64,000 bases of DNA, taken from Candidatus Gastranaerophilales bacterium (GTDB lineage: Bacteria > Cyanobacteriota > Vampirovibrionia > Gastranaerophilales > Gastranaerophilaceae). A model generated the notes under the pieces. That model saw only the letters and a list, made by a program, of their open reading frames with translations. It did not search any database and had not been told where the DNA came from. The stretch is taken from positions 62,001 to 126,000 of the forward strand of contig CALVAX010000002.1 in the NCBI GenBank assembly GCA_944325605.1, written 5' to 3'. Position numbers and translations under genes: made by a program. Below, piece after piece: positions 8,056 to 40,691 of the stretch. Position 1 is the stretch's first letter; each line of letters begins with the position of its first letter.

Positions 8056-8095
8056 AGAAACAGCAATTATTTAATTGCTGTTTCTATATTTTTTT
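8056..8095 (+). terminator. Rho-independent terminator
   Basis: AGAAACAGCAATT (8056-8068) pairs with AATTGCTGTTTCT (8073-8085), followed by a T-rich tract. It ends the 7679-8011 transcript and overlaps the last codons of the convergent 8067-9287 gene. Confidence 0.85.
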
Positions 8096-9287
8096 CATTG
8101 TAAAAATTAAATGCATCACGCATTATATCTCTTAGTCGGTTCATTACACCGTTTTCGTACGTTTCGCCATAAACGTCACGCAGATTTTTGAACATTGCGT
8201 CATAGTAAAATGTTGCGTCGGAAAATTCTTTCAGAATGACTTTTTCTTCATCTGTAAAATTAGGATTGTTATAAGTTTTACTTTCGTATATTTTGTTAAT
8301 GGAGTCTTTCAGTTCATTAATTTTTTTCACATCACCGTTCATAGCTTCATCCAAAATTTTTGAACTTTCATCAATGTTTCCTGCAGCTTTGCAAATTTTT
8401 CTCAGGCTGATAAAAGCAGCCACTCTGTCATCATCCATTTTTCCGGAATTGATTATATCCATAACCAGATTCCGTGCGGATCCTACATCTCCAAGAGCAA
8501 GTTTAACTTCGGATATGTTAAGTTTTAACTCGTTTAAACTTCCTAAATTATCAAGTTCTTTTCCGAATTTCTCAATTGATTTTTCATAAACAAAATCGAA
8601 AAATTCTGCGTTTTCTTTATTTAGTTCAATATTATCAATATCTATATCAAGTCCGACAATATAATTTTTTAAACTTTCGCTAAAGCTTTCAATATCATCA
8701 TGATTTCCGGCTATTGAGTTTATGTCATCTTTAAATTTGGCTAAACTCTGCTCGTGCGGCAAAGTTTGCAATTCGGCAGCTGTCAATTTGTAAGGAATTT
8801 CTTCTACAATCTCTGCATCTTCAGCATCAATACGGTTAATAATATCTTTTTTGGGGTTAGTTTCTTCAGTGTCAATTTTGGCTGGAGAAATTTCTGCAGT
8901 TTCGTCTGCTAATTTAGTTTCATTAGTGTCAATTTTGGTTTGGGAAATTTCTTCAGTTTTGTTTGCTAATTTAGTTTCCTGAGACTTTACGGATGAGTTT
9001 TTGGAGTTTACTTCTGTACCGAGATTTTCAGCAGCTTTAGATGTTTCTTTTTTTGCTCCGCCCAGTAGTTTCTGGATTTTTGCGCCTAATTTCCCCCTGT
9101 AACCGGCATAGACAAGCCCTGCAAGAACTACAAGACCTGCTCCGACTCCTATTGCGGTCTGAGTATCTTTGCTAAGTCCTTTACTTTTGTTTTCAACGGA
9201 TGCAGGTTGTGTTGTAACTGTTTGCTGGTTGTTATTTCTGAATGAAAATCTGTTTATATAATTTGGCTGAATTGATGATATTTTCAT
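8067..9287 (-). CDS. Lineage-specific membrane protein with MKIS/FSF N-terminus
   Basis: 406 aa. I start it at the ATG at 9285-9287 (AAAGGAGTG, 3 nt spacing) rather than at an earlier ATG 24 nt upstream that has no SD. N-terminus MKISSIQPNYINRFSF, a Gln/Asn/Thr-rich stretch, one membrane helix (about residues 42-60, AIGVGAGLVVLAGLVYAGY), then a Glu/Lys/Thr linker with two near-identical ETKLA-ETAEIS-KID units, and a helical domain of about 230 residues. The short N-terminal motif recurs in other genes here (29443, 44045, 53460). Function unknown. Confidence 0.75.
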   Translation of the reverse strand: MKISSIQPNYINRFSFRNNNQQTVTTQPASVENKSKGLSKDTQTAIGVGAGLVVLAGLVYAGYRGKLGAKIQKLLGGAKKETSKAAENLGTEVNSKNSSVKSQETKLANKTEEISQTKIDTNETKLADETAEISPAKIDTEETNPKKDIINRIDAEDAEIVEEIPYKLTAAELQTLPHEQSLAKFKDDINSIAGNHDDIESFSESLKNYIVGLDIDIDNIELNKENAEFFDFVYEKSIEKFGKELDNLGSLNELKLNISEVKLALGDVGSARNLVMDIINSGKMDDDRVAAFISLRKICKAAGNIDESSKILDEAMNGDVKKINELKDSINKIYESKTYNNPNFTDEEKVILKEFSDATFYYDAMFKNLRDVYGETYENGVMNRLRDIMRDAFNFYNEKNIETAIK

Positions 9288-9375
9288 AGTCACTCCTTTT
9301 GTTTCATACATTTTTATATAATCACGAAAATATATTTTTTTGTTATTAAAAATTTTAATTCTTACAAAACTTCAT

Positions 9376-11942: not shown

Positions 11943-12498
11943 TTAACCAATAGGAAGTTCTACAATTTTACCCTTTTTAAAACTATCAGAAAGTAATTGA
12001 TACGTAATTTTTTGCGGATCAAAATATTTGTATGTAGATTCATCTATTTTTCCGTCAGCTTTCTGCAGAACAACCATTAAACCATTATCGGACATTTTCA
12101 TAGCTTTGTAAAGTTTGCTCCATTTTGCATCTTTAGCAGCAAATTCATCCATAAGAGTTTTGCCCATTAAAATTATTTTATCACCGGCTGCAAGTTTTCC
12201 GTCATTGTCCCACTCCGCTGCAATTGATTTGAGAGTATCTTTTGTAAATTCTTCCGGTTTTTGCAGAAGTTCGGAGGCTCGTTTTGCAAGTTTTTCGGCG
12301 GCTTTAACGTCAAGACGTCTTTTAACTAAAATTCCTCCGATTGTAAGTGCCGCAAGGGCACCAAGCCCTATCATAGTCTTTTCGCAAGTCGTCAGGCTAT
12401 TTTCTTCGGGGGGGGGGGGTAACTTTTCCTTGTGTAGAGTGGGTTTCGCCGGATTTGAAATAAATGTTGCCGTTTACACGATCTACTGATAACGTCAT
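11943..12498 (-). pseudogene. Membrane protein gene frame-shifted at a C12 tract (phase-off)
   Basis: A full gene would start at the ATG at 12496-12498 (AGAAGG, 7 nt spacing) and run MTLSVDRVNGNIYFKSGE... into a run of 12 C on the coding strand (12408-12419). With 12 C the frame hits TAG four codons later. With 11 or 14 C it joins the downstream frame: EENSLTTCEKTMIGLGALAA, a membrane helix, then about 120 helical residues with no stop. The downstream part alone (from 12374) has no ribosome-binding site. This is the layout of a phase-variable gene; a sequencing error in the homopolymer is the alternative. Function of the protein unknown. Confidence 0.75.
12408..12419 (-). repeat. Homopolymer tract (12 G on plus, 12 C on coding strand)
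   Basis: Twelve identical bases about 80 bp after the start codon. The genome is AT-rich, so such a tract is not expected by chance. Length changes by slippage would switch the frame. Confidence 0.85.
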
Positions 12499-12767
12499 AA
12501 AATTACCTTCTATTTTAACTACCTGTATTTATAAAAACATGAAATCCAAAATTTTTGCGGAATTTGCTGCTTTCAGGTTTACAAAAATTAAAAAATATTT
12601 TATGATTATAATATAAATTTAAAGTCATCATATAGCTAATAATAAAATATATATGTCATTCTGAGCCGATTTTATTTAGATTCTCCGCTATCGCTCAGAA
12701 TGACGCAAAGGCGAAGAATCTCCTTTATATAAAGTGACGGTTCTGTAATAATTTAAAAGAGGTTGTT
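12499..12767. repeat. Dispersed repeat upstream of the HEPN gene
   Basis: Contains GCGGAATTTGCTG at 12557-12569, matching the terminal inverted repeat of the elements at 37.4 and 40.1 kb. It also contains a TTCTGAGC...GCTCAGAATGAC inverted pair at 12654-12721. Possibly a decayed copy of that element. The last 45 bp should hold the promoter and the GAGG ribosome-binding site of the HEPN gene. Confidence 0.5.
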
Positions 12768-13187
12768 ATGAAAAAATCAGAGTTGAATTTGAATGTTTTG
12801 AAAAAAAGTCTTGCAACTTTGAAAGTTTGTTATAAAGATTTAACAGAACAAAAAGACGAAAAAATCAAAACTTACATTAAAGATTCATGCGTTCAGAGAT
12901 TTGAATATACTTACGAAACCGCAAAAAAAATCATGAATAAATTCTTAAAAAAAGAATATGACAAACAGGAAAAAGATTTAACTATAAATAATATTTTCCG
13001 TGAAATGTTTGCACTTGGTCTGATTAAAAATTTTGAACACTGGGCAGGATATAGAGAAAAAAGAAACCTGACTTCACACGAATACAATATTGAACTAACA
13101 TATCCGATTATTGACATAGTTCCGGAGTTTATTGAGGATGTTGATTTTTTAACAGAAAGTTTGGAAAAAGTTTTGACAGATGATTAA
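12768..13187 (+). CDS. HEPN-domain toxin (HepT-like, nucleotidyltransferase partner)
   Basis: 139 aa helical protein of the HI0074 type. The RX4HXY motif of HEPN ribonuclease toxins is at residues 99-106 (RNLTSHEY). It overlaps the next gene, an MNT nucleotidyltransferase, by 8 bp (13180-13187). Known for this pair (type VII, HepT/MntA): HEPN cleaves RNA and is silenced when the MNT protein adds AMP to the Tyr of the motif. All motif residues are intact, so an active toxin is plausible. SD AGAGG lies 6 nt before the ATG. Confidence 0.88.
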   Translation: MKKSELNLNVLKKSLATLKVCYKDLTEQKDEKIKTYIKDSCVQRFEYTYETAKKIMNKFLKKEYDKQEKDLTINNIFREMFALGLIKNFEHWAGYREKRNLTSHEYNIELTYPIIDIVPEFIEDVDFLTESLEKVLTDD

Positions 13188-13467
13188 GGGAATAACAGAA
13201 AAAGAAGAAAGTATAATCCAAAAAATTCTTGCGAAATATCCGTATGAATTTTATTATTACGGCTCAAGGGTCAAGGGTGATTTTACAAAATCTTCGGATC
13301 TGGATATTTTGATAGAGTCAGCCACGGAGATTAAACAATCCGACATTGAAAACCTTGAAAAAGAATTCAACGAAAGCCTGATTCCGTACAGGGTAAATTT
13401 CAGCCGGCGTGACCGGATGGAAGATTATTTCTATGAACTGATTAAAGATAATCTCGTAAAGGTTTAA
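13180..13467 (+). CDS. mntA: MNT-type nucleotidyltransferase antitoxin
   Basis: 95 aa. The minimal nucleotidyltransferase motif GSX10DXD is complete: G28-S29 and D40-L-D42, with the third acidic position later. Family role: transfers AMP from ATP to the HEPN partner to neutralise it. The start codon lies inside the end of the HEPN gene, giving translational coupling, with toxin gene first as is common for this class. Plasmid or genomic-island origin is possible but nothing mobile is seen nearby. Confidence 0.88.
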   Translation: MIKGITEKEESIIQKILAKYPYEFYYYGSRVKGDFTKSSDLDILIESATEIKQSDIENLEKEFNESLIPYRVNFSRRDRMEDYFYELIKDNLVKV

Positions 13468-34503: not shown

Positions 34504-35406
34504 ATGGATGTAAGTGCAGTAAAGAGTTATGAAAAAAGAAATCCGTTGCAGACGGTTATCAATTCAACATTGATAGGTGCAGCAGTAGGCTATGGCGCAA
34601 AATACGCTATCCCTATTCAGGAAAGAGAAAAGAAGAATATTGCTTACAGAGCAATTGCAAATTCAGCCAGAAAAAATGAAAATGAAAAGAAAGTTAATGC
34701 GCTGAAAATTCTTAAATCAAGAACTCCGGCTCAGGATGCTTTTATCAAGCTGGTAGATGAAAGAGATAAGTTCAAATATCCTACATTGAAAAATCTCGCC
34801 GAAAGACTCGGCGGAGGCGAAACTCCTCTTGGCAAACAGGTTCTTGAAATTATCAACCGTCCTGAAAATAAGGGAATGAAACTTGACAGATTAGCAGAAA
34901 TTCTGGGTCAGGAATCTGCCGATGTAAAACTTTTTAAAGAAAAAGCCGGTGACAAAGATGTATTCAAAACGCTGACTCTGGACGAAATTACAGCCAAACT
35001 GGGCGGTGAGAATGAACCGCTTGCAAAAAAAGTTATAACAATATTTAAACAAAATGATAACAAAAGTCTGGACTTTGACAGTGTAGCATTCACTTTAGGC
35101 AAAAATTCGCCGGAGGTTGCTGAATTGAACAGGGTTGCCAGATTTAAAAACTGTTTTGTATCGGATAACATCAAAAGTATCGTCAAAAAACTCGGCGGTG
35201 AAGCTTCCGATGCAGGTAAGGAATTTAGACAAATTATAAAAGAAGTTGACCAGAATGCTTCCAAGACTTCAAGAGCAATTCTTCGAGGCGTACACAAACA
35301 CCTGAAAGATATCCGCTATACGGCACCTCTTCTTCTGACAGGTGCAGCGGCAGGGTTTGCAGGAGCATTTATAAAAAATTATTTATCACACAAAACCGAA
35401 GCTTAG
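34504..35406 (+). CDS. Lineage-specific protein with internal LGG repeats and two TM segments
   Basis: 300 aa. A first hydrophobic segment around 18-38 and a second near 273-292 (APLLLTGAAAGFAGAFIKNY) flank about 230 hydrophilic residues. The inner part has three units of the type LAERLGGGETPLGKQVLEII, TAKLGGENEPLAKKVITIF and KKLGGEASDAGKEFRQII, with intervening L-ILGQES/TLGKNS units. Not recognised. No SD is clear (the region before the ATG reads GGGTTTATTAACT). Followed by a terminator. Confidence 0.7.
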   Translation: MDVSAVKSYEKRNPLQTVINSTLIGAAVGYGAKYAIPIQEREKKNIAYRAIANSARKNENEKKVNALKILKSRTPAQDAFIKLVDERDKFKYPTLKNLAERLGGGETPLGKQVLEIINRPENKGMKLDRLAEILGQESADVKLFKEKAGDKDVFKTLTLDEITAKLGGENEPLAKKVITIFKQNDNKSLDFDSVAFTLGKNSPEVAELNRVARFKNCFVSDNIKSIVKKLGGEASDAGKEFRQIIKEVDQNASKTSRAILRGVHKHLKDIRYTAPLLLTGAAAGFAGAFIKNYLSHKTEA

Positions 35407-36359: not shown

Positions 36360-37270
36360 TTAGAATTTAATCGGATAATCTTTTGGAACTGTCCAACCAT
36401 TGCAGTATATCAAAAAAGTGCACCACGAGGCTGAAGATACTCCATGCGCACTTCCGCCTGTGTCCTGTTTGCATTCGGATATAAATTCATCTCTGTTTTT
36501 TTCAAGATCTCCGCATGTCCATTTGTAATCAGGCCGCGGCTGTATTCCGAGTCTGGCAGGTGTTTTGGTATCGCTGTACAGGTTAAATAAAAACATATTT
36601 TTCCCGAGAATAAATTTGTCATTGCTGTTGGAAGTTACTACAAGAATACTTGTCTGGATGTTATCGCCTTTTTTAAGCGGGAAAAAATATAGGATTGCGC
36701 CGGAGGGTAATACAAATCCCGGAGTGTGCCAGATATATTGATCATACCAGGATTTTACTCCTGAAGACCAATAAACATCAAATTTTTTTTCATACGGTGT
36801 TGTGTAAACAATATTCAAATACGGTTTTATATAATTGTCAGTAAACGCATGCGTTCCGCTGTCGCCGGCCACTGTGCTGCCGGCTCCTTCAGACGGGTAA
36901 TCCCAGTACCTTGCTTCTCCGTGGTCAACTTCTGCGCGCTGGATAACTTGTGCAAGAGTGGAAAATGCTTTTTGAAGCTGCGTTTCGACAACTTTTTTTC
37001 TGTAAGCTCCCATAAGCCCCGGCATTGTCATAGATGCAACAATACCTATTATCCCTAAAGTAATAAGAACTTCGGCCATAGTAAAAGCCGGAATTTTAAT
37101 AAAACTTTCAGAAAATGTACAGGAAAAAACTGCTAAAAATTTTTCAATCTTATATTTACAGCCAAAAACAGAAAAGTTTTTGAAGAATAAAAAACACTGA
37201 TTATCGGCTACAGAAGCGGGTTTACCCCCCCCCCCCCTGTATGAAATACAGATGTGGTGCGGTTTTTCAT
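36360..37270 (-). pseudogene. Prepilin-like gene frame-shifted at a G13 tract (phase-off)
   Basis: Full gene would start at the ATG 37268-37270 (GAGG, 7 nt spacing). It reads MKNRTTSVFHT, then a run of G, and with 14 or 11 G continues KPASVADNQ..., a long leader, FTMAEVLITLGIIGIVASMT and a 210-residue C-terminal domain to YPIKF. With the 13 G seen here the frame ends at TAG nine codons later. The open reading frame from 37079 starts inside the prepilin signal and has no own SD. Paralogue of 18252-19007 (leader, WTCGD, WCTFLIYCNGWTVPKDYPIK). A homopolymer error is the alternative. Confidence 0.8.
37225..37237 (-). repeat. Homopolymer tract (13 C on plus, 13 G on coding strand)
   Basis: Thirteen identical bases, 33 bp after the start codon, in the region coding for the prepilin leader. 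Slippage by one base would restore the frame. Confidence 0.85.
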
Positions 37271-40205: not shown

Positions 40206-40280
40206 CCTTTTATTTTAACAATTTTTAACATGTGTTATTTCTTAACGCAAAATGATTATTTTTTATGTTTTATTATTAAT

Positions 40281-40691
40281 ATGACATTAAAAATTGAAAC
40301 GACCAAAATTCCGAATACAAATTCATGCCGTGTGTCATCATACGATGAAATCAATTTGAACGGTGAAATCAAACGGAAAAATCTGAGAAATTTTGTTGTA
40401 CCGGCGGATAAAACCGACGAATTTGTAAATAAATATAAAAAGACTGAAAAAGTATCATTTGTGTCTATGGCGATAACCGGTTTAGCCGGACTTTTAGGAG
40501 CCGGCGCATTGATGCTGCAAATTGCGAAAAAGCATCCCAAAAGTCTTCTGGCTAATGATATTGATTTACCTGCTTATGCTGCAGTTGCAGGTGCCATAAT
40601 TGGCGGCGCAATTCCGTATCAAATTACGAATCACAAAGAAAAACAGATTTTACAAGATTGCAATGCTGTTGAAATTAAATTAAAAAAATAG
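40281..40691 (+). CDS. Small unknown membrane protein
   Basis: 136 aa from the ATG at 40281; a longer frame from 40230 begins with a Phe/Ile-rich N-terminus but no SD is clear for either. MTLKIETTKIPNTNSCRVSSYDEINL opens it, then a soluble 35-residue stretch, two membrane helices (SFVSMAITGLAGLLGAGALM and LPAYAAVAGAIIGGAI) and a Lys-rich tail. It has the same overall plan as the 53460 gene. Not recognised. Confidence 0.6.
   Translation: MTLKIETTKIPNTNSCRVSSYDEINLNGEIKRKNLRNFVVPADKTDEFVNKYKKTEKVSFVSMAITGLAGLLGAGALMLQIAKKHPKSLLANDIDLPAYAAVAGAIIGGAIPYQITNHKEKQILQDCNAVEIKLKK

Follow-up and report, generated by a model that had tools for sequence, protein, structure and literature searches.

A run of 12 Cs lies near the 5′ end of a minus-strand gene in a 64,000-nucleotide stretch of contig CALVAX010000002.1 (hereafter the window), from a Candidatus Gastranaerophilales bacterium (GenBank assembly GCA_944325605.1). 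Between its ATG at 12498 and the run, the gene reads MTLSVDRVNGNIYFKSGETHSTQGKVT, and the run itself lies at codons 27–31 (Table 1). When tract lengths are recomputed in silico, 12 Cs lead to a TAG four codons past the tract; 11, 14, or 8 Cs hold the frame open to 11943 and yield 184, 185, or 183 aa, respectively, and the other lengths tried (9, 10, 13, 15, and 16 Cs) leave it closed. By this arithmetic, a one-base change in the tract toggles the gene between a truncated and a full-length product. A sequence-only reading of the window had placed the run early in a gene with a Shine-Dalgarno sequence, with an early stop at 12 Cs and a restored frame at 11 or 14; every coordinate it gave is correct, and the recomputed frames agree with it.

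Table 1. Coordinates of the C12 gene and of the companion tract in the window
Feature	Position	Strand	Remark
Shine-Dalgarno-like GAAGG	12506..12510	-	7 bases upstream of ATG; from sequence
ATG start codon	12496..12498	-	kept in orthologues
OFF product ORF with 12 Cs as assembled, 33 aa	12397..12498	-	stop TAG 12397-12399
C12 homopolymer on coding strand, predicted slippage tract, proline codons	12408..12419	-	
Post-tract long frame, 154 codons plus stop	11943..12407	-	joins start at 11, 14 or 8 Cs
Hydrophobic segment MIGLGALAALTIGGILV then KRR, single predicted membrane helix	12324..12374	-	from sequence; topology predicted
Companion tract, G13 on coding strand	37225..37237	-	after ATG 37270, out of frame
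Prepilin-like ORF behind companion tract (AFTMAEVLITLGIIGIVA)	36360..37223	-	GspG model E 7e-6

Because the only G/C runs longer than 5 in the window are C12 and C13 at 37225 (G13 on its own coding strand), the C12 tract is not a product of chance. G and C runs reach 5 and then 12 and 13, with the 6–11 classes empty. Overlapping C8 matches number 11, from these two tracts only, against 0.31 expected per shuffled window, and none of the shuffled windows contained 11. The C12 tract with its flanks is unique in the genome. Both homopolymer genes had been proposed to be OFF and to encode membrane proteins, and both proposals hold broadly: C12 and C13 are each out of frame, and the products carry one predicted helix here and an N-terminal prepilin helix in the companion. 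The prepilin copy in the window scores 14.7 bits against TIGR02532, under the 16.3-bit cut-off, which is exceeded by 6/7 of the companion ORFs tested.

Behind the hydrophobic segment, the long-frame protein has a C-terminal domain of ~110 residues with a predicted mixture of helix and strand (model mean pLDDT 71). Residues 1–35 of the model fall below pLDDT 50, and a long helix is modeled whose first part is also below 50. The positive-inside rule would place the C-terminal domain in the cytoplasm and the tail with the prolines outside. Searches of Pfam, NCBIfam, and PDB with the long-frame protein returned no match, and Foldseek returned nothing below E 0.08, the best second-look hit (Z 3.9) lying over a single helix. 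Viral contigs scanned for this protein and for a prepilin leader with a tract likewise yielded nothing. Three tract-less proteins in the window, at 8067-9311 (-), 34504-35406 (+), and 40230-40691 (+), have a loosely similar layout, with a short N-terminal tail, one hydrophobic segment, and a domain without assignment; they may go with the C12 gene's protein by layout only.

Few of the 59 relatives covered by our orthologue search carry the gene, and it is missing from that chromosomal place in several species of the genus. The locus is conserved, flanked by tsaC/sua5-like and NifU-like genes. In a close sister species (G009), the orthologue also has a C12 tract with different flanking codons and is likewise OFF, needing 11 or 14 Cs. 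Three further orthologues are in frame: G004 carries CCCCCCCTCCCCCC, 14 bases interrupted by T; G013 carries C8 and differs in its C-terminal domain; and G010 is without the tract. Lengths on record at this locus are thus 12 (twice, in both closest species), T-interrupted, 8, or none. The two C12 species are closely related, so that their agreement in length and register cannot be treated as independent. For the post-tract frame, dN/dS is 0.32 relative to G009 and 0.21 relative to G004, values indicative of purifying selection. In-frame orthologues together with a selected frame imply that the functional product of the gene is the long protein, which the C12 allele does not make under ordinary decoding.

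In G013, the gene at the same chromosomal place (G013:C160, L157, 1862-2680) joins an orthologous 5′ part (MTLSVNPVNSNIYFRANE...TPP) to an unrelated C-terminal domain, a fusion that has the appearance of a cassette-like exchange behind the tract. At 12768-13467 (+), the window contains a gene pair with NTase_sub_bind (PF08780) and NTP_transf_2 (PF01909) domains, resembling HepT/MNT-type toxin-antitoxin pairs; the pair is also present in G009, a similar one occurs in G011, and it is missing here in G004 and G010.

The sequence-only reading was confined to the two tracts of the window, and these are two of 22 in the genome rather than an isolated pair. The source genome (2.15 Mb, 99.8% complete) contains 22 G/C runs of at least 9, about half of them exactly 12. 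In 15/22, a short ATG-led leader is followed by a coding-strand G tract and a prepilin-type ORF (FTMAEVLITLGIIGIVAAM...), and the C12 run is the only coding-strand C tract with a clear gene in this genome. In the sample as a whole, drawn from several genera, the tract reads as C on the coding strand in 9/164 genes, and about nine-tenths are prepilin-like with the tract in the leader. Tracts were located by pattern, and larger genomes were sampled rather than read exhaustively. Many paralogous leaders in the genome closely match one another and some are placed at the end of a contig, which makes their assembled tract lengths less certain than the length of the unique C12 tract. We found no G/C runs of at least 9 in two genomes (G005 and G018), as against 7 to over 100 in relatives, indicating gain or loss of tract sets among closely related species.

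Acyltransferase-like tract genes also occur elsewhere in the genus. Three G-tract genes (L069 and L082 in G009, L067 in G008) resemble membrane acyltransferases (VDFLRF...) and share the leader-plus-tract layout, and they appear to form another surface-modification class. A different arrangement is seen at G000:C25:9426-9435 (L045), where a G10 run lies inside a long gene, outside any leader, and is followed by nearly 1000 open codons in another frame, one base short of joining.

A sister locus provides near-direct evidence of recent tract length change. G004 and G010 share an almost identical block of ~2.4 kb with 4 substitutions; the only further changes are indels in the G tract of one prepilin gene, which is 12 (ON) in one genome and 13 (OFF) in the other. 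One-base differences were also found between other orthologue pairs. Loss of mismatch repair was considered as a cause of variation and rejected: MutS1 and MutL are present, so that variation need not mean that this pathway was lost.

The OFF setting of the two tracts in the window, which the sequence-only reading had recorded by simple counting, is also non-random, as three quarters of the sampled tract genes of the genus share the same one-base-too-many register. Among 134 sampled tract genes with a credible start (inferred from an ATG and a Shine-Dalgarno match) in the 14 genomes of the genus, 102 carry one extra base, 19 are ON, and 13 lack one base. Genes that would be ON at 11 have length 12 in 75/86 cases, those ON at 12 have length 13 in 14/31 and length 12 in 8, and those ON at 10 or 13 have length 11 in 11/17. 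In a length-controlled model with separate length and register effects, the one-too-many register is favored ~5.4-fold relative to ON and ~5.6-fold relative to the opposite OFF register. Resampling leader families by bootstrap places 95% of log ratios at about -2.4 to -1.1, clear of zero, in a sample that contains related paralogues whose effect the bootstrap reduces and does not remove. In some of the 13s, the run was extended by substitution of an adjacent base, with no change in total length, and these are still one too long. In G034, which belongs to another genus, the same script found 14 genes with one too few, 5 ON, and 0 with one too many, and the excess is therefore not forced by our classification.

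Random switching alone does not predict this excess. A mutational preference for 12 as the sole cause is rejected by the ON-at-12 class, in which 13s outnumber 12s by 14 to 8. Alternative starts in the ON frame were also considered; in the examples worked through, a stop codon interrupts the upstream ON frame, often as ATGA at the start itself, and start codons ahead of the tract are rare in it, and so in-frame initiation elsewhere does not account for the shift. The frame from tract to prepilin motif is open in 136/142 prepilin tracts and, where the motif is at least 30 codons away, in 58/64, compared to 0.8% of other frames. Preservation of these open frames implies that tract genes are expressed often enough for selection to act, yet most are recorded OFF in one direction. 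This pattern suggests a conserved OFF state that is one deletion from ON, as in the pilus genes of Bifidobacterium breve, and programmed slippage during expression is a less likely cause of the bias.

Our preferred reading, to which we assign a probability of roughly 0.7, is that the C12 gene is a slipped-strand phase-variable gene recorded in its OFF state. The proposal of a phase-variable gene in the OFF state was already part of the sequence-only reading, and it gains support from the conserved and selected frame, the in-frame orthologues, and the genome-wide tract set. The tract would act as a replication-slippage contingency switch early in a gene for a single-pass membrane protein of ~184 aa. 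At 11 or 14 Cs, the long frame would be continuous with the start and the protein would be made (ON), and at 12 Cs, as assembled, translation would end four codons past the tract (OFF). Tract length would change at a high rate in the living population, most cells would be OFF with ON one single-base deletion away, and the protein would presumably act at the cell envelope. The source genome probably contains about twenty such on/off switches, most of them in pilin-like genes.

The shared register might instead be the working state of these genes. Under programmed recoding, one base too many would be the configuration that is decoded, and full protein would be made at a fixed low level, either because RNA polymerase omits a base within the G/C run or because the ribosome shifts by +1 at CCC-C or GGG-G. 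Such recoding would explain directly the register of 102/134 sampled genes, and it is consistent with the tracts lengthened by neighboring point substitution, which stay at 13, one too long, with no return to 12, and with the C-tract gene requiring a shift identical to that of the G-tract genes. However, predicted RNA folding past the tract matches the mean of shuffled sequences in each of the C12 species (z 0.07 and -0.40), the AAGGA ahead of C12 is not retained in G009 with no Shine-Dalgarno-like element conserved, G034 has the opposite OFF register, orthologues without an intact tract are in frame, and the same register belongs to a true DNA switch in B. breve (PMC9187656). We consider recoding unlikely. 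More doubtful still is its genus-wide form, in which the one-too-many register is coded rather than idle and genes are expressed throughout via slippage or a +1 shift. Were that the case, dozens of prepilin-like genes per genome, together with the C12 membrane protein, would use G/C runs of ~12 to set a low, noisy, built-in level of each product. As the simplest account, a DNA switch with a mostly-OFF population is favored.

Gene decay and sequencing error fit these data poorly. A decaying gene, whose frame was broken by slippage and which is being lost in the source species and its sister, could explain why both C12 species are OFF and why several relatives lack the gene, but is quite improbable given 154 codons without other frame damage, the two dN/dS estimates, retention of the tract, start codon, and Shine-Dalgarno sequence, and the occurrence of the same pattern in over a hundred genes. 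An error in sequencing or assembly, with a real tract of 11 and a gene in frame, is very improbable. Long G/C runs are error-prone and the named relatives (Candidatus Gastranaerophilales) are metagenome assemblies, but uniqueness of the tract and its flanks excludes repeat mis-assembly here, and a systematic extra base would have to affect many species yet spare G034, where the opposite holds. Furthermore, in B. breve controls, omission of one base was more frequent than addition (PMC9187656), an error that would shorten runs rather than lengthen them.

The closest comparison for a DNA switch with this register is B. breve UCC2003, in which the sortase-pilus loci bbr_0113 and bbr_1889 are annotated with G11 and G10 and are ON at G10 and G9; the ON fraction at bbr_0113 was 3% of cells in culture and about 30% of those in mice (PMC9187656). 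Both systems are found in gut commensals with intragenic G/C tracts of 10–12, are recorded OFF by one extra base, and have ON one deletion away. B. breve differs in being an actinobacterium with sortase pili whose switching was demonstrated by deep sequencing, whereas the present case is drawn from genome comparison and involves a C tract, a membrane protein without a family match, and prepilin-like genes in a nonphotosynthetic cyanobacterial lineage. The Campylobacter phasome described with PhasomeIt similarly comprises dozens of G/C tracts in each genome, most of them intragenic, with coding-strand poly-C in the minority (5%, PMC6321876, compared to 9/164 here). Campylobacter tract sets are known for capsule, LOS, and flagellar modification genes, whereas the set described here is ~9/10 prepilin-like with leader tracts, plus the C12 membrane protein. 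Examples of programmed transcriptional slippage and +1 frameshifting include Shigella mxiE and bacterial dnaX (cited in PMC3711429). These resemble the present genes in that a slippery run links two overlapping frames and the register is conserved (here within the genus but not in G034), and the present genes differ in a run that is G/C and 12 long, in the lack of a visible stimulator, and in having in-frame orthologues.

The literature that we searched contains no report of phase variation in Gastranaerophilales. If the switch is real, uncultured gut relatives of cyanobacteria have a set of slippage switches that ranks among the larger ones and lies chiefly in pilin-like genes, and each host may harbor several surface types side by side. 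The shared register poses the question of whether selection maintains OFF, one deletion from ON, as a resting state, which is what B. breve suggests, or whether the products are made directly from that register.

Finally, dispersed repeats of the cattctgag...gaagaatct type occupy intergenic positions on either side of the C12 gene (11540-11900 and 12650-12720). Similar repeats, when translated, constitute long in-frame leader inserts in tract-bearing prepilin genes, including one with 235 codons from tract to motif (L036).
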